Shown here: positions 23,844 through 30,594 of the stretch, piece after piece
How the letters are laid out: each line of letters starts with the position of its first letter
Numbering within the stretch: position 1 is the stretch's first letter
Assembly (NCBI GenBank): GCA_021299095.1
Contig: JAJTFW010000001.1
Coordinates: 1-46,536 of the forward strand
Origin: Sphingobacteriales bacterium
GTDB taxonomy: Bacteria; Bacteroidota; Bacteroidia; AKYH767-A; OLB10
Reading direction: 5' to 3'
Length of the DNA: 46,536 nt
Program-made: the position numbers and the translations under genes
The notes under the pieces: generated by a model
What the model saw: the letters and a program-made list of their open reading frames with translations, nothing else
Told to the model about the DNA's origin: nothing
Database searches by the model: none

Positions 23844-25457
23844 ATGCACAACACCCTGATCATTTCCCTAACCATACTCCTTGGAATACCCGGACTATGC
23901 AGCGCTCAACAGCCCGTCTGGGTCAGTCAGTCGACCGTGCAGGAAGTAAAAATTTACCTCAGCGGTGCCACCGTGTCCAGAACCGCAAAAGCCTCACTCA
24001 AACCCGGTCTTCAGGAAATCATACTGGATGGACTCTCGCCCTACGTCAATGCGCAAAGCATCACCCTGAAAGGTTCGGGCGACGCTACTATCCATTCTGT
24101 ATCGTTCCACCAAAACTACCTCCAGGAACAAAAGCGTTCGCCACTCATTCAGCGACTTGAAACTGAACTCGATTCACTGCTTTTGTTGTCCTCACGGCTG
24201 AAATCCAAATTACAAGTGAACAATGAAACGCAGAAATTACTCCTCGCAAACACCCAAGCCGGCAGCAATCAACAAGGCGTTAAGGCGAGCGATTTGAATC
24301 AGCTAGCAGAGTACTTCGCACAAAAACTCGGGAAATTACAGGAAGAACAACTTGAGTTGCAACAACGGGAAAAGCCCCTTAATGAGGCCATTACACGCAT
24401 CCGACAACAGCTCATAACCGAGAAGCAGGCCCTTCAGCGGCCCACCGGAAACCTGGTAGTTCGGATGGATGCGAAACAAGCGGGACCCGTTCAATTTGAA
24501 TTCAGCTATCTGATTACAACAGCAGCGAGCTGGACTCCTTATTATGAACTCAGATCAACTGGTTTAGGAGAACCGGTTGAGGTTATTTACAAAGCCAAAA
24601 TCAGCCAGCAAACCGGAGAAGACTGGAACAATGTCAAACTATCTCTGCACGGTAATCAGCCAGCAGCCGGAAGCCAGCGGCCTTTCCTCAGTCCTTGGTA
24701 TCTTAATTTCATGCCTTCATTACAGGAAGTTGCTGTAATGGGCCACCGCAAAAGTCAGGAGATGCGGGGGGCAGTACCGATGGCTGCAGGTGCTGCCGAT
24801 TCAAATGTCCCCGAATTGAACTCCTTAGAGGTAAGTACAGGTCAAGATCAGCTAGCCTATAGTTACAGGATCGAAACGCCCTACTCCATTCCATCGGATG
24901 GTCGCGAATACCAGGTAGAAATCCAACGAAACCGCCTCGATGCGCAATACACCCATATCGCTGTTCCAAAATCGGATAATGATGCATTTCTCGTAGCCAG
25001 AGTCATGGGTTGGCAGGATCTTGGCCTCATGCCCGCCCAAGCCGGTGTTTACTTCGAGGGAACCTATACCGGAGAGGCCTATGTGCAAACCAGCGCCGAC
25101 TACGACACACTTGAGCTTTCACTTGGGCGCGACAAGCGGATTTTGATTAAACGTGAGCGCGTGAATGATGTGAGCGGAACCACACTAATCAGCGGGAAAA
25201 GAGAGCGTAGGTTCAGTTACGAAACCACGATTCAGAACCTCCGGAAGGACAGCGTAGACCTCATTCTGGTTGACCAGATACCTGTGAACATGCAAAAGGA
25301 CATCATCGTCGAACTAGAGGAAAGTACAGGCGCAACCCGAAATGAACAGAGCGGTGAACTCACCTGGCGGTTGGAGTTGAAAGGGGGACAAAGCTTGCGT
25401 AAAAAATTCAGCTTCAAAGTAAAATGGCCCAAGGACCAAACGATTCAGGGATTGTAA
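23844..25457 (+). CDS. Secreted DUF4139 (MuiA-like) family protein
   Basis: 537 residues. A signal peptide (TLIISLTILLGIPGLCSAQQ) leads to a DUF4140-like N-terminal domain (about 30-95, VQEVKIYLSGATVSRTAKASL). A Gln/Glu/Leu-rich coiled coil follows (about 105-205), then the DUF4139 beta domain (about 215-530, FEFSYLITTAASWTPYYELR). The family is known as the mucoidy-inhibitor MuiA-type group and its biochemistry is unclear. Inside the beta domain, around residues 292-308, there is an insert (LQEVAVMGHRKSQEMRGAV) that recalls the TonB-box segment of SusC-like receptors. Probably periplasmic or outer-membrane associated. Confidence 0.85.
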   Translation: MHNTLIISLTILLGIPGLCSAQQPVWVSQSTVQEVKIYLSGATVSRTAKASLKPGLQEIILDGLSPYVNAQSITLKGSGDATIHSVSFHQNYLQEQKRSPLIQRLETELDSLLLLSSRLKSKLQVNNETQKLLLANTQAGSNQQGVKASDLNQLAEYFAQKLGKLQEEQLELQQREKPLNEAITRIRQQLITEKQALQRPTGNLVVRMDAKQAGPVQFEFSYLITTAASWTPYYELRSTGLGEPVEVIYKAKISQQTGEDWNNVKLSLHGNQPAAGSQRPFLSPWYLNFMPSLQEVAVMGHRKSQEMRGAVPMAAGAADSNVPELNSLEVSTGQDQLAYSYRIETPYSIPSDGREYQVEIQRNRLDAQYTHIAVPKSDNDAFLVARVMGWQDLGLMPAQAGVYFEGTYTGEAYVQTSADYDTLELSLGRDKRILIKRERVNDVSGTTLISGKRERRFSYETTIQNLRKDSVDLILVDQIPVNMQKDIIVELEESTGATRNEQSGELTWRLELKGGQSLRKKFSFKVKWPKDQTIQGL

Positions 25458-25466
25458 GCCGGGCAA

Positions 25467-25805
25467 TCACAACTCCATCGAAACCGGATCGATAAAGCAG
25501 GAACTTTTAGACAACTCTTCGGAGGTCCCGTCGGTATAGACAGCCGTAAACTTTACACGCTGGCCTTTTTGATAATGATCCATCAGGACCCGTGTACCAT
25601 CCGGAGACAAAGTCCCCCGAATCGGCTCACCGGACCGATCATACCGCAGCTGCTCAATTCGCTCAACCGGTTTTTCGAGTTGAAACTGGTATTGACGAAG
25701 ATTCCCCGGAAGGAAGCCCGCGTCCTCGCCCAGAGATTGTGCAGTCACACCTCCGGCTGTTAACAGGAAAATAACCAGTACAAACAGGCGAGACAAAACG
25801 TACAT
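25467..25805 (-). CDS. Small secreted protein, function unknown
   Basis: 112 residues from the ATG at 25805, with a signal peptide (MYVLSRLFVLVIFLLTAGGVTAQ). The mature part contains IEQLRYDRSGEPIRGTLSPDG and VKFTAVYTDGTSEELSKSSC, short beta-strand pairs with alternating turns. I do not recognise the family. Longer starts at 25820 and 25859 exist but place residues before the signal peptide, and the latter runs into the AIM24-family gene on the other strand. It converges on the DUF4139 gene with 9 nt between stops. Confidence 0.65.
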   Translation of the reverse strand: MYVLSRLFVLVIFLLTAGGVTAQSLGEDAGFLPGNLRQYQFQLEKPVERIEQLRYDRSGEPIRGTLSPDGTRVLMDHYQKGQRVKFTAVYTDGTSEELSKSSCFIDPVSMEL

Positions 25806-25819
25806 GACCACAAGGTACA

Positions 25820-25827
25820 TAATTTCG
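25820..25827 (+). promoter_or_regulatory. Putative -7 box of the AIM24-family gene (TAATTTCG)
   Basis: One mismatch to TAnnTTTG, with the TTCG ending seen before bamD and gyrA. It ends 25 nt before the ATG at 25853. Confidence 0.35.
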
Positions 25828-25852
25828 CTGCCTAAACGCAATACATCGAGCC

Positions 25853-26611
25853 ATGGCACATGAAATAGACTACGTCATTCTGGGAGACGACATTCAGGTT
25901 GTAGAAGTGGAAATGGACCCGGGTGAAGCCATTGTGGCCGAGGCCGGAGCCATGCTATACCTCGAGCAGGGCATTGAAATGCAAACCAGCACTGGTGGCG
26001 GTATTTTGAAGGGACTTAAGCGAATGATTACGGGCGAGAGTTTTTTCATTACCAGTTTCACAAACCATGGTGCAGTGAAGCGTAAAATGGCTCTTGCAGC
26101 ACCTTATCCGGGTAAAATCATTGCCATCAATCCTAAGGATTTCGGAGGCAGCTTCCTGTGCCAGAAAGACGGATTCCTGTGTGCTGCTCAGGGAATCGAT
26201 ATCAACATCGCTTTTACCAAGCGGATTGGGGCAGGCCTGTTCGGTGGTGAAGGATTTATCCTACAGCGTCTTTCTGGTGATGGCAACTGCTTCATACATG
26301 CAGGAGGTACCATATTGAAACGACAGCTCGCTGTGGGAGAACAATTACGCGTCGATACGGGATGTCTTGTTGCGTTTGAGCCCACGGTGGATTATGACAT
26401 CAAATTCATCGGTGGTTTCAAGAACTCATTGTTTGGAGGTGAGGGACTGTTTTATGCAGAATTGACCGGACCCGGACTGGTTTACCTACAGAGTGTTCCC
26501 TTTTCACGGCTTGCGGATCGTATCGTTGCTGCGTCCCGTTTTGGTGGTGGAAGAGAAGAATCCCGTGGACTTGGAGGACTACTGGGCGGATTCATCTCGG
26601 GGAATGAGTAA
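25853..26611 (+). CDS. TIGR00266 / AIM24 family protein
   Basis: 252 residues forming a beta-helix-like domain rich in Gly, without a signal peptide. Family signatures are VVEVEMDPGEAIVAEAGAML, GGGILKGLKRMITGESFFI, FGGEGFILQRLSGDG and FKNSLFGGEGLFYAELTGPG. The C-terminus is a Gly-rich tail (RGLGGLLGGFISG). The family is widespread, named after a yeast mitochondrial protein, and of unknown bacterial function. The gene stands alone between divergent and convergent neighbours. Confidence 0.9.
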   Translation: MAHEIDYVILGDDIQVVEVEMDPGEAIVAEAGAMLYLEQGIEMQTSTGGGILKGLKRMITGESFFITSFTNHGAVKRKMALAAPYPGKIIAINPKDFGGSFLCQKDGFLCAAQGIDINIAFTKRIGAGLFGGEGFILQRLSGDGNCFIHAGGTILKRQLAVGEQLRVDTGCLVAFEPTVDYDIKFIGGFKNSLFGGEGLFYAELTGPGLVYLQSVPFSRLADRIVAASRFGGGREESRGLGGLLGGFISGNE

Positions 26612-26626
26612 GGCCAAAAAAGTGAA

Positions 26627-26646
26627 CGGGGTCCATGGGGACCCCG
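26627..26646 (-). terminator. Hairpin terminator, mainly for the T9SS-domain gene
   Basis: 8-bp stem CGGGGTCC/GGACCCCG (26627-26634 with 26639-26646) with a 4-nt loop. On the minus strand it is followed about 6 nt later by a run of six T. On the plus strand no T run follows, so it suits the leftward gene better. Confidence 0.65.
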
Positions 26647-26694
26647 AACACTCAATCAAACCATAAAACACACATATTTTTCCCCCGTTGTGCT

Positions 26695-27066
26695 TTAACG
26701 GATTATTTCGATTTTCTTCCAGATCGTTGAACCCGAACAGGCAACCGTGTACCAATAAGTGCCTGGTCGCATTGAGGACCCATCAATGCTGAATTGGTAA
26801 ACCTCCCCCTCTTCTACAAGATCGTCCAACAGCTCGGCCATCATTTTTCCCTGGCTATCGGTGATTCCGATCCGGGCAAAACCGGTTTTCTCGGCACGAT
26901 ACGTAAGCGTAGTTGCTTCCGTGAACGGATTTGGGTACACCAGCACCTGGTCGCTGCCACTCAATCCGCTTGGTAGGGCCGCTGGGCGGCGTACCAGATC
27001 AGCATTTGCCTGCATGGTGATGAACAACAGCAGCATTAGAAAGTTGAGGTAGATGCGAAGTCCCAT
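26695..27066 (-). CDS. T9SS type A sorting-domain protein with almost no cargo
   Basis: 123 residues from the ATG at 27066. A signal peptide (GLRIYLNFLMLLLFITMQANA, processed near 22) and an ~18-residue linker are followed directly by a type IX secretion C-terminal sorting domain (about 41-123). The domain shows VLVYPNPFTEATTLTYRA, ITDSQGKMMAELL, MRPGTYWYTV and the ending WKKIEIIR. Such domains normally sit behind large enzymes or adhesins and direct export and surface attachment through the Por machinery. Here there is no room for a cargo domain. An in-frame ATG at 27120 adds residues that spoil the signal peptide. Confidence 0.85.
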   Translation of the reverse strand: MGLRIYLNFLMLLLFITMQANADLVRRPAALPSGLSGSDQVLVYPNPFTEATTLTYRAEKTGFARIGITDSQGKMMAELLDDLVEEGEVYQFSIDGSSMRPGTYWYTVACSGSTIWKKIEIIR

Positions 27067-27096
27067 ATCCGTTTTAAACTGAATACAAGTTATGCT

Positions 27097-27104
27097 CGAA
27101 CCTA
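27097..27104 (-). promoter_or_regulatory. Putative -7 box of the T9SS-domain gene (TAGGTTCG)
   Basis: One mismatch to TAnnTTTG with the TTCG ending, on the minus strand, 30 nt before the ATG at 27066. Confidence 0.3.
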
Positions 27105-27182
27105 AGCTTGATTCAATCAACTTTCCACGAAAGCCACATTGCCATGTGGTTAACGTGGTTCAACAGAGGGCGAACGGAACGA

Positions 27183-28340
27183 TTAACGGAAAGGACTCCT
27201 TGGAATCCAGTTGTGCGGGGCCGGATCGGGCAAAAGGCAACGAACGAAGCCGTTCAAAAAACCGTTTGAGAGCTTCATGTAAGCATTGTAATACACTGGG
27301 ACTGCACCTACCGTGGTTTTCATTTCAAGTGCAGTTCTGCCAAAGCATACCGATTCAGCTCCGGAATCAAACGCCATTTCAATGTAGCGAAAGAGAATAT
27401 TGAGGTACAAAGAACGGGTTCGGTTCTCCTCGTAATCCAAACCAATATGATGTGCTTCGTACTCTTCACCATTCTGCATACCGGTTGTAAATGCAAGCAT
27501 ACGATCACCTAAAAACAACGCGGAGCAGCGCATGCCATCGCCCAGGTTTTTCTTCAAGGCCATCAGATAATCCATATCCACCTGCACGATTTTCAAGGGC
27601 GCTTTGTCCTGAACAGCCGAATACAAGTGTTGCATATCCTGTCGATAACGCTTCATTTCACTCAGTGAAAGGTCACGCCATTGGCAATCCTCAATCCGCT
27701 TCTTGGTCTGATTCATGCGGACCCGATACTTCGAAGAAAGGGCAGTTTTATATCCCTCCATATCGGATACGCCCTGCGGAAACCGCAGTTTCATGACGGG
27801 GTCCATATCGAGCCTGAAAAACCGGCGCGATTTCAATATGGCTCCAATTGGATCATCGGATTCCGGTGCGTCTTTTACTACTTGAGCAATCACGCGGTGT
27901 GTCGCACCGATCGAACGCAGCAACTCCTGAATCAAACTGGGAAGTGCGTCAGCCATTGCTGAACGGTTGTCCCCAGAAAAACCATGGTCACCACTTACGC
28001 ACATGTTTCCACACACAAGCAATACACTCTTACGCATCGAAGAGGTTCGAAACAGGTAGGCATCCAGGAGGGATTTGACCGTTTGCAGCAACCGGCGATA
28101 CGGTTTATCCTTGATCATTTCATCCATCGCAGAGAGACGAAATGGAAGGAGCTGGAAGTAGTAAAAACCAAAAACCTTTTTACCAGATTTCAAAACGGCA
28201 TAGCGAAACTCTGCATCCGCCGGACCACCTAGCTCCAGGGCATTGAGATAAGGAAGCGACAAAAACACATTCGCGGACGCAACATCAGCCTCAGAGAACA
28301 TCTCTGCCGCGGTGCTGAACCACTCTGTTTTGAACCCCAT
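27183..28340 (-). CDS. GNAT-like acyltransferase family protein
   Basis: 385 residues from the ATG at 28340, without signal peptide or membrane helix. The C-terminal half resembles the GNAT / FemAB-type fold: YKTALSSKYRVRMNQTKKRIED, RCSALFLGDRMLAFTTGM, YEAHHIGLDYEENRTRSLYLNILFRYIEMAF, then FGRTALEMKTTVGAVPVYYNAYMK. The substrate is unknown and the assignment is by resemblance only. A longer frame to 28481 overlaps the divergent protease gene and its promoter, so it is rejected. Confidence 0.7.
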   Translation of the reverse strand: MGFKTEWFSTAAEMFSEADVASANVFLSLPYLNALELGGPADAEFRYAVLKSGKKVFGFYYFQLLPFRLSAMDEMIKDKPYRRLLQTVKSLLDAYLFRTSSMRKSVLLVCGNMCVSGDHGFSGDNRSAMADALPSLIQELLRSIGATHRVIAQVVKDAPESDDPIGAILKSRRFFRLDMDPVMKLRFPQGVSDMEGYKTALSSKYRVRMNQTKKRIEDCQWRDLSLSEMKRYRQDMQHLYSAVQDKAPLKIVQVDMDYLMALKKNLGDGMRCSALFLGDRMLAFTTGMQNGEEYEAHHIGLDYEENRTRSLYLNILFRYIEMAFDSGAESVCFGRTALEMKTTVGAVPVYYNAYMKLSNGFLNGFVRCLLPDPAPHNWIPRSPFR

Positions 28341-28459
28341 TTTTCCGTTTTCTGCTATTCTGTCCACCGCTGGAACTCTTAGGCAAACTTGAGTCTGACC
28401 GACGGCGGAGTGCAAAAATGGTTTTTTTTGAGCCAGGGTACTCCCATCCCCTACCCTGT

Positions 28460-28467
28460 TACCTTTG
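28460..28467 (+). promoter_or_regulatory. -7 box of the prolyl oligopeptidase gene (TACCTTTG)
   Basis: Perfect TAnnTTTG ending 6 nt before the ATG at 28474, implying an almost leaderless mRNA. Confidence 0.6.
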
Positions 28468-28473
28468 TATTCC

Positions 28474-30594
28474 ATGAACATGAAGTCATTATCTCGTAAC
28501 GGCTACCTCTTGTTGGTCTTCTCGATGCTGTTCCATCAGAATTCAAATGCCCAAAAACCTAACACAGCCTATCCGGAATCGCGACAGGTTCAGCAAAACG
28601 ACACCTATCACGGAACTGTAGTAAACGATCCGTACCGCTGGCTTGAAGATGACCGAGCCCGAGAGACTACTGATTGGGTTAATCGCCAAAATGCATTTAC
28701 TCTTGCTCATCTATCAACAATTCCCTTTCGGGATAGTTTAAAAACTGAAATGCAGGGGTATTGGAACTATGTACGGTACCAAACCCCATTCCGATGCGGA
28801 GACAATTTTTTCTATTACCGCCAGGATGGTCAGCAAAACCAGCCCGTTTTGTACTACATGAAATCGCTGGAGTTTGTACCCTTCAGTTATTTCGATCCTA
28901 ATAAGCTATCGAGCGATGGTACCACAGCCCTAACCCAAACTGTACCCTCACGTGATGGCAAGCACCTGGTTTTCCAGGTTTCCGAAGCAGGGAGCGACTG
29001 GAACAGTATCCGCATCAAGGAAACGAAGAGCATGAAAACCTTACCCGAAGTCATAGATGGGGTGAAATTCAGTTCCATTTCCTGGTTCAAGGACGGATTT
29101 TTTTACAGCAAATACCCAAAAGCCGAAACAGGAAATGCAGCCAATGAATATCACAGCGTGTATTACCACCGCTTGGGCACGGCACCAACACAGGACTCAC
29201 TGGTTTGGCAGGACAAAGAACATCCGCGACGCAACTTCAACGCATCGGTTACCGATGACGAGCGCTACCTCGTGATTAGCGGAAGTGAATCAACCAGCGG
29301 CAATTCCGTTTTTGTTCAGGATCTCAGTGTGAAAAGCTCCAGTCCAAGGGCCATTGTCAAATCATTCGAATATGACTTTGACCTGATGGGCAACTTTGGT
29401 GAAGAGCTTGTTTTTCTGACCAACCACAAGGCGCCGCGCAAACGAATTATCACAATAAATCCCAGAGCCATCGACGAGAAAAACTGGACTGTGATACTTG
29501 CCGAGTCGGATGAAATCATCCAATCCGCATCCCTTTGCTGGAGATCCATCGTGGTCCATACCATGAAAGACGCCAGTAGCAGGTTGTACATACACAACCA
29601 GAAGGGGCTCCGTACGCATACGGTACCGCTCGACGGCTTCGGAACTGTCGAAGGCATCAGCGGATCGATGCGCGACAGCTTGATGTTCTTTTCGTACACG
29701 ACGTTCACCCAGCCCGCCACCGTTTATCGATATCAACTGAATAACCACCGCATGGCGGTCCAGTTCAAATCTACTCTGCCCTACGCCGCGGATGATTTCA
29801 TGACAAGCCAGGTTTTTTACAACTCGAAAGACGGGACCCGAATCCCCATGTTTCTGGTACATAAAAAGGGGCTAAAGCCGAATGGTAAATTACCGACCCT
29901 GCTATTCGGTTACGGTGGATTCAATATCAGTAAGACCCCGGAATTCAAGCCCGAGCGAATGGTCCTGCTCAACCATGGCGGAGTATTTGCCTTACCTAGC
30001 CTAAGGGGTGGAGGTGAATATGGAAGTGAATGGCACGATGCAGGCACCAAACTCCGCAAGCAGAACGTCTTTGACGATTTCATAGCTGCGGCTGAATACC
30101 TCATAAGTGAAGGATATACATCACCAGCGACACTCGGAATCGCTGGCCGATCTAACGGCGGACTGCTGGTGGGCGCTTCCATGACTCAGCGACCGGAACT
30201 CTTCAAAGTGGCTCTGCCGGCCGTTGGGGTGATGGATATGTTGCGGTTTCAAAAATTCACAATTGGTTGGGCTTGGACCAGAGATTACGGAAGCAGCGAT
30301 GACCCTAAGGAATTCAACGCCCTGTACGCCTACTCACCCTACCATCGACTCAAGCCCGAGACCTGCTATCCGGCTACACTGGTAACCACTGCCGACCACG
30401 ATGACCGCGTCGTCCCAGGACATTCGTTCAAATTCGCAGCAAGATTACAGGAAGTACAATCCTGCAGCAACCCTGCACTGATCAGGGTCGATACCGATGC
30501 GGGACATGGTTCAGGGAAACCCTTGTCCAAGTTACTCGACGAACAAAGCGATATCTTCGCCTTTCTCCTATACCATCTGGGGGTTCGTTTATGA
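28474..30594 (+). CDS. Prolyl oligopeptidase family serine peptidase (S9A), secreted
   Basis: 706 residues. A signal peptide (NGYLLLVFSMLFHQNSNAQ) precedes the S9 N-terminal domain with YPESRQVQQNDTYHGTVVNDPYRWLEDD, a seven-bladed propeller and the alpha/beta-hydrolase domain. The catalytic Ser560 lies in GRSNGGLL, the Asp in ADHDDRVVP and His678 in AGHGSG. The enzyme cleaves short proline-containing peptides and is likely periplasmic. The start is 28474 or the ATG at 28480. A frame from a TTG at 28465 would start inside the -7 box. It overlaps the next gene by 4 bases and lies upstream of two POT peptide transporters. Confidence 0.95.
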   Translation: MNMKSLSRNGYLLLVFSMLFHQNSNAQKPNTAYPESRQVQQNDTYHGTVVNDPYRWLEDDRARETTDWVNRQNAFTLAHLSTIPFRDSLKTEMQGYWNYVRYQTPFRCGDNFFYYRQDGQQNQPVLYYMKSLEFVPFSYFDPNKLSSDGTTALTQTVPSRDGKHLVFQVSEAGSDWNSIRIKETKSMKTLPEVIDGVKFSSISWFKDGFFYSKYPKAETGNAANEYHSVYYHRLGTAPTQDSLVWQDKEHPRRNFNASVTDDERYLVISGSESTSGNSVFVQDLSVKSSSPRAIVKSFEYDFDLMGNFGEELVFLTNHKAPRKRIITINPRAIDEKNWTVILAESDEIIQSASLCWRSIVVHTMKDASSRLYIHNQKGLRTHTVPLDGFGTVEGISGSMRDSLMFFSYTTFTQPATVYRYQLNNHRMAVQFKSTLPYAADDFMTSQVFYNSKDGTRIPMFLVHKKGLKPNGKLPTLLFGYGGFNISKTPEFKPERMVLLNHGGVFALPSLRGGGEYGSEWHDAGTKLRKQNVFDDFIAAAEYLISEGYTSPATLGIAGRSNGGLLVGASMTQRPELFKVALPAVGVMDMLRFQKFTIGWAWTRDYGSSDDPKEFNALYAYSPYHRLKPETCYPATLVTTADHDDRVVPGHSFKFAARLQEVQSCSNPALIRVDTDAGHGSGKPLSKLLDEQSDIFAFLLYHLGVRL

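Follow-up and report, generated by a model that had tools for sequence, protein, structure and literature searches.

Several described systems come close to the locus considered here. According to a review of the T9SS (PMC10202324), the sorting domain (CTD) is both necessary and sufficient for secretion, and even very small proteins are among the effectors, which extend upwards in size from there. CTDs are described as binding within the SprA pore on the loops of PorV (PMC10994853), and PorU and PorZ are reported to retain their CTDs (PMC7712824). The last source also describes Fjoh_0547 of Flavobacterium johnsoniae, a protein of 112 aa which is secreted even when sprA or porV is mutated. A CTD protein of small size has therefore already been published, and the view of the first-pass annotation of this locus, that known T9SS clients carry a large cargo, was too strong.

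In the window (the whole stretch of 46,536 nucleotides that was analysed) we found a gene, designated mini-1, whose product is a CTD preceded by a signal-peptide-like N-terminus and a short linker. We consider it fairly likely that mini-1 is a T9SS type A sorting domain that stands alone, is inherited and has a function.

The mini-1 gene and its product

The gene, for which the first-pass annotation gave no strand, lies on the minus strand, with its ATG at 27066 and its stop codon at 26697-26695, and encodes 123 aa (Table 1); the plus-strand reading frame that was tested proved to be broken by stops. The product was recognized by two CTD family models, namely Pfam PF18962 (33.4 bits, cut-off 27, residues 43-120) and NCBIfam TIGR04183 (28.4 bits, cut-off 23, residues 43-119), the latter of which is matched at E<=0.001 by all ten members of the mini-1 orthologue alignment. 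An AlphaFold2 model built on these ten orthologues (mean pLDDT 74.9, pTM 0.57) predicts a seven-stranded Ig-like beta-sandwich, the strands spanning residues 41 to 121 (block means 83-90), together with a weakly predicted helix at residues 3-16 and pLDDT values under 50 at residues 18-38. The hydrophobic N-terminus, to which this helix belongs, was read by eye as a putative Sec signal peptide. No cargo domain is present ahead of the CTD, and both the sequence and the model give about 18 disordered residues there instead.

When the predicted structure was compared with solved ones, the CTDs of PorU (Z 9.0), PorZ (8.6), mirolase (8.5) and NucA in a SprA complex (7.8) ranked high, with values that are tied with those of unrelated Ig-like domains (e.g. 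2p9r, Z 9.3). A sequence search of the PDB with the mini-1 profile yielded no match at E<=0.01, the best one (0.028) being a CTD chain in 8glj. The presence of the T9SS in the source genome is indicated by the PorU sortase, the component that was searched for (1278 bits against a cut-off of 420), and by 108 CTD matches.

The first-pass annotation had proposed a mature protein of ~100 residues with ~83 of them in the CTD, and the family models and AlphaFold2 agree with it closely (~101 and ~83, with cleavage after residue 22 placed by eye). The plausible start and -7 box that it had noted are present too: the gene begins with ATG, and TAACTTG, a putative Bacteroidota -7-like box, has a similar TAANTTG counterpart, found by eye, at or near the same spot in nine of the ten mini-1 loci (it is absent from L003). 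A longer in-frame TTG start (141 aa) received no backing from the orthologues.

Table 1. Coordinates of mini-1, its flanking features and other small CTD-only genes (window positions unless a contig or locus is named; SP, signal peptide)
Feature	Position	Strand	Basis
mini-1, whole gene, 123 codons + stop	26695..27066	-	ORF call, orthologue alignment
Signal-peptide-like residues 1-22	27001..27066	-	cleavage site by eye; helix 3-16 in model
Linker, residues 23-40, predicted disordered; D23 invariant across 10 orthologues	26947..27000	-	alignment + model
T9SS type A sorting domain (CTD), residues 41-123, seven predicted strands	26698..26946	-	family models + AlphaFold2
TAACTTG, putative -7-like promoter box	27086..27092	-	read by eye
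Upstream co-directional gene, 432 aa, GNAT domain Acetyltransf_6 (27.1 bits, cut-off 22)	27183..28481	-	Pfam
Conserved 3' stretch GTGTTTTATGGTTTGATTGAG, unpaired in consensus fold	26651..26671	-	
Covarying hairpin of 3' element (terminator-like hairpin 26646-26627)	26622..26651	-	RNAalifold stem, fold
Run of six T past hairpin	26616..26621	-	
mini-2, second SP+CTD-only gene, unrelated to mini-1, behind peptidyl-tRNA hydrolase (pth) gene	C77:8745-9095 (L117 746-1099; L124)		
Small SP+CTD-only genes, other families or genera, other neighbours	L235 1688-2065; L236 1203-1628; L238 1217-1597		

Distribution, selection and genomic context

A search of 61 genomes returned, besides the window's own copy, nine matches with open frames of 124-144 aa; among the matches listed, nearly all others were the ends of frames of 200 to >3000 aa. 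Within the same family, a short mini-1 copy is present in 10 of 24 genomes and scores 160-188 bits against the family profile, the next best match reaching 48.7 bits. These copies are found in genera g1 (3/4 genomes), g5 (6/7) and g7 (1/1), and in none of 12 genomes from seven other genera. The two g1/g5/g7 genomes that lack mini-1 are 80 and 85% complete, and the GNAT neighbour is missing from them too. No additional short copy was found in 42 genomes of the order at E<=1e-13, and none of 294 other, evenly drawn genomes of the class gave a match at E<=1e-20, where the best 14 candidates per genome were scored (14-15 per genome across the two class-wide searches). The same searches of the 61 genomes, the family (24), the order (42) and the class (294) revealed no full-length orthologue. 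Being restricted to three genera, mini-1 is no general part of the T9SS.

The co-directional GNAT gene was found upstream of mini-1 in all ten loci, in L008 by its end only, which is what the contig holds of it. Its product appears FemAB-like, judging from a sub-threshold FemAB_like hit (G001 orthologue). The gap between the two genes amounts to 84-116 nt in eight loci and widens to about 0.76-0.78 kb in L009 and L010, which are a close pair. Near this gene pair the window contains, at 23844-26611, genes for AIM24, a DUF4139/DUF4140 protein and a small protein that belongs to no Pfam family; some of them have relatives in the vicinity in L009, L010, L115 and L116 too, in varying order. Beyond AIM24 in G007 there is a frame (L115 8608-9345) for a putative IS30-type transposase.

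Selection on mini-1 was estimated by the Nei-Gojobori method in 12 pairs, the five distant ones of which are saturated or near-saturated in dS. The window copy is in none of the seven unsaturated pairs, which gave dN/dS values of 0.035-0.14: 0.035 for L009/L010, 0.143 for L007/L008, 0.089 for L005/L006, and 0.104-0.119 for four further pairs of the L005-L008 group (dS 1.0-1.2). The window copy occurs solely in saturated pairs (pN 0.45-0.46, pS 0.76-0.91), and for this reason purifying selection on it is something that we infer. The CTD is the most constrained part of the protein, with a summed pN/pS in the L005-L008 group of 0.15, compared with values of 0.26 in the linker and 0.23 in the signal region; all three amino-acid changes between L009 and L010 fall in the signal region. 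The GNAT neighbour gave dN/dS values of 0.05-0.08 in three pairs. Considering its orthologues, synteny and selection, mini-1 is more than a chance frame. The first-pass annotation, which had suggested a search for orthologues of the same short length and for purifying selection, and had listed a small protein in its own right among its options, is supported on these points: both signs were found among the relatives (selection in pairs without the window copy), and the short orthologues stand beside the same neighbour.

The architecture of a signal peptide followed by a CTD alone recurs. In the source genome, six of the CTD matches fall in open frames of <=170 aa: two are complete genes of this type, two are cut by contig ends, one looks broken and one has no signal peptide. 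The second complete gene, mini-2, has a short orthologue in every genome of g1, g5 and g7 (12 of 12, one of the copies being truncated at a contig end); all 12 match PF18962, and dN/dS was 0.011-0.161 in six pairs. In five of the six copies examined, among them the one from g8, mini-2 follows a pth-like frame; the sixth lies at a contig end. More small proteins of this type, with scores over the Pfam cut-off, are encoded in other genomes of the class, namely G277 (125 aa), G053 (141 aa) and G005 (126 aa). A frame of 100 aa at C34:12199-12501 (L120 1000-1302), also over the Pfam cut-off, has a CTD and no signal peptide, and is likely the stump of a lost client.

A lysine close to the C-terminus of the CTD is expected to be near-invariant and is called important in T9SS papers. 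The window copy has it (K118), and in the ten mini-1 proteins overall this position is occupied by K (1), R (5), T (3) or S (1). Lysine was found in 38-39 of 53 CTDs from relatives and in 0/12 mini-2 proteins; in the source genome itself the counts were R 25 and K 6 (n=38), from 40 CTD stretches fetched minus L212 and L215, whose tails looked incomplete and which were left out of this count and of the tree below. The idea that loss of the lysine marks the two small proteins as no ordinary clients was dropped, since Arg is the commonest residue in their own genome.

In sister genera, the slot directly after the GNAT gene is occupied, on the same strand, by larger proteins with signal-peptide-like starts (L104-L108, L110, L111). 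In g4 this protein has 579-581 aa with SprB repeats and a CTD in three of four genomes (the CTD is over the cut-off in both of those scanned, and the slot gene of the fourth genome is interrupted by unread bases). The g9 protein (482 aa) has a CTD below the cut-off (21.0 vs 27), the g10 protein (1156 aa) has SprB repeats and a CTD over the cut-off (one scanned), and the g3 protein (343 aa) matches no CTD model, though it has a SprB repeat. In g8, the gene for an FG-GAP protein with a CTD (547 aa) lies convergent. A link of the GNAT gene with T9SS surface proteins is possible. In a FastTree analysis of 119 CTDs (53 from relatives, 38 from the source genome, six from slot proteins, ten of mini-1 and 12 of mini-2; the slot proteins of G012, not read to its end, and of g3, with no CTD, were left out), mini-1 and mini-2 each formed a clade of their own (support 0.965 and 0.938, respectively), and the g4 slot CTDs grouped in a further one (1.0). 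The slot CTDs were also not listed among the matches of the mini-1 profile at E<=1e-9. Descent of mini-1 from slot clients received no support from either analysis. Either mini-1 is the remainder of an old deletion, or the slot is a site that favours such genes.

The conserved 3' element

The sequence after the mini-1 stop codon reads GTGTTTT(T)ATGGTTTGATTGRG and continues into a hairpin and a T-rich run. A 24-base pattern of this element, with <=2 mismatches allowed, was sought in 14 genomes and occurred once each in nine, always at the mini-1 locus; the element is present at 9/10 mini-1 loci, and G009 has the protein without it. An exact-pattern scan of the GTDB collection (one genome per species, 84,980), which may omit records of the window's own genome, returned eight stretches, apparently eight of these same loci.

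For 45 g1-g5 orthologue pairs we also determined the longest stretch of identical bases within the 100 nt that follow the gene. It measured 16-18 nt in each of the 14 mini-1 pairs left after filtering, and likewise in two AIM24 pairs, which see the mini-1 element from its other side. Among the 29 remaining pairs it was 6-8 nt in 22 and 9-29 nt in seven, the last being taken as flanks that enter other coding sequence. The element is thus invariant over ~18 nt, although the mini-1 proteins are 27-50% identical. The listed 3' flanks of mini-2 contain no such element common between genera.

In the consensus stem computed with RNAalifold, 98.9% of 90 cells are paired and five of ten pairs are changed on both sides. 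Of 500 shuffles, none equalled the share paired or the covariation score; as many doubly changed pairs were reached by five, and as many pair types by 144. The fold of the window's own element has a z of -2.36, and 3/200 shuffles were equally good. The first-pass annotation had seen a terminator here; a terminator-like hairpin is indeed present, but the region is far more conserved than a terminator needs. In our view, the mini-1 transcript probably terminates in a conserved, sRNA-like 3' element that has a function of its own. To our knowledge, such a candidate regulatory RNA is rare in this part of the Bacteroidota.

Rfam gave no match at the gathering score in the whole window, and at E<=1 the region 26580-27200 produced a chance-level hit alone, to a trypanosome snoRNA on the opposite strand. 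Targets were sought in nine genomes with the 16-nt complement of the element (<=2 mismatches), which returned 118 rows, nine of them the locus itself, compared with 34 rows for a reversed-pattern control that is possibly depleted for coding reasons. In 21 further loci that were inspected, the complement sites fell within ORFs or on their antisense strand, ahead of a start (L160, L169), or immediately before other terminators; across the nine genomes searched and these 21 loci, we found no target that several genomes share. Stretches resembling AATCAAANNATAAAA, near-complementary to the element, stand right before the terminators of other genes in L153, L157, L162, L163 and L172 (G007, G022, G018), and may be there by chance.

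Possible roles and comparison with known systems

As the sequence suggests, mini-1 would be exported by Sec, and signal peptidase would leave ~101 residues. According to the family models and the predicted structure, these would fold into a single CTD beta-sandwich preceded by a short disordered lead, and the fold itself would then work at the outer membrane or outside. The CTD fold is probably the working part of mini-1, because nothing else is left to select on. What it might do there can be pictured in two ways, which we weigh about equally and put forward tentatively. By analogy with the CTDs of PorU and PorZ, mini-1 could dock as an uncleaved accessory at PorV/SprA or at the PorU/PorZ attachment complex. 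Alternatively, it could be displayed or released as a small protein, perhaps independently of the translocon, as has been reported for Fjoh_0547. The first-pass annotation also listed a decoy or regulator of the sortase and a tag for an unlinked partner as conceivable roles.

The locus might instead be an ancient remnant, going back to a larger slot client whose cargo disappeared in the ancestor of g1, g5 and g7, with the stump being kept in a functional or slowly drifting state. The larger secreted proteins in the same slot and orientation in g4, g9, g10 and g3, some of them with a CTD, would fit such an origin. However, the separate clades of the mini-1 and g4 slot CTDs, the absence of slot CTDs from the profile matches and the selection that holds the short form speak against it, and we regard it as unlikely. 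A recent decay, with mini-1 a pseudogene stump on its way out, is hardly conceivable: signal-less CTD frames do occur in the same genome (the C34 frame is an example), but ten intact orthologues, a conserved neighbour and dN/dS values far below 1 in the relatives contradict it. The decayed client suggested by the first-pass annotation is not supported: full-length orthologues of which this copy would be a truncation were sought in the genomes named above and none found, and the slot proteins of the sister genera do not carry the closest CTDs.

It can also be asked whether the protein is what matters. The locus could be kept mainly for a 3' UTR-derived sRNA, with the CTD frame as its carrier; the invariance of the element over diverged proteins, its single copy, its covarying hairpin and an anatomy that resembles FopS sRNAs (PMC11697453) would all suit this. 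Nevertheless, the protein itself is under purifying selection, G009 retains it without the element, and the target search in nine genomes gave no target, which leaves this explanation quite improbable. Peptide delivery, in which PorU would cut at the CTD and the lead of ~18 residues would be the product, is very improbable: the lead starts with an invariant Asp, often in the form D-x-x-P, and its pN/pS shows some constraint, but it is the least conserved part between genera and the least constrained one in the L005-L008 group.

A functional stand-alone sorting domain accordingly remains our preferred reading of mini-1. A wider version of it, which we consider doubtful, is a dual-function locus, where one transcript would give rise to a cargo-less CTD protein acting on the T9SS outer-membrane complex and to a trans-acting sRNA with the seed GUGUUUUAUGGUUUGAUUG. 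If this were true, it would mean, together with mini-2, that Bacteroidota keep free-standing sorting domains as an accessory class of the T9SS. Sorting domains are usually studied as removable labels, and families that consist of the label only and are maintained at fixed sites by selection suggest that its fold has work of its own. Such families offer natural minimal probes for the handling of the CTD by PorV, SprA and PorU, and they bear on the translocon-free exit of proteins like Fjoh_0547; the 3' element, for its part, is a well-defined candidate regulatory RNA. In the literature searched, which covered few subscription journals, we found no conserved syntenic CTD-only family with an element of this kind.

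To conclude, the locus resembles several described systems. Its 3' element (window 26616-26671, minus strand) appears to have the anatomy of a Bacteroides small RNA: the FopS sRNAs of Bacteroides thetaiotaomicron likewise have a single-stranded conserved 5' stretch followed by a terminator hairpin, but they are described as multicopy (14 members) and deposited in Rfam (PMC11697453), whereas the mini-1 element is single, stands behind a protein gene and has no Rfam match. As regards the protein, PorA (PGN_0123) of Porphyromonas gingivalis is also a small CTD protein, reported to be able to reach the surface without the T9SS machinery; however, its 246 aa include a FimH-like domain ahead of the CTD (PMC7712824), for which mini-1 has no room. 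Fjoh_0547, considered here by its printed length and by the secretion reported when sprA or porV is mutated, is similar to mini-1 in size and likewise far below the usual size of cargo. Finally, the uncleaved (group III) CTDs of PorU and PorZ share the fold and are among the best structural matches to mini-1, but they form the ends of proteins of 1158 and 776 aa, whereas mini-1 is the CTD alone.
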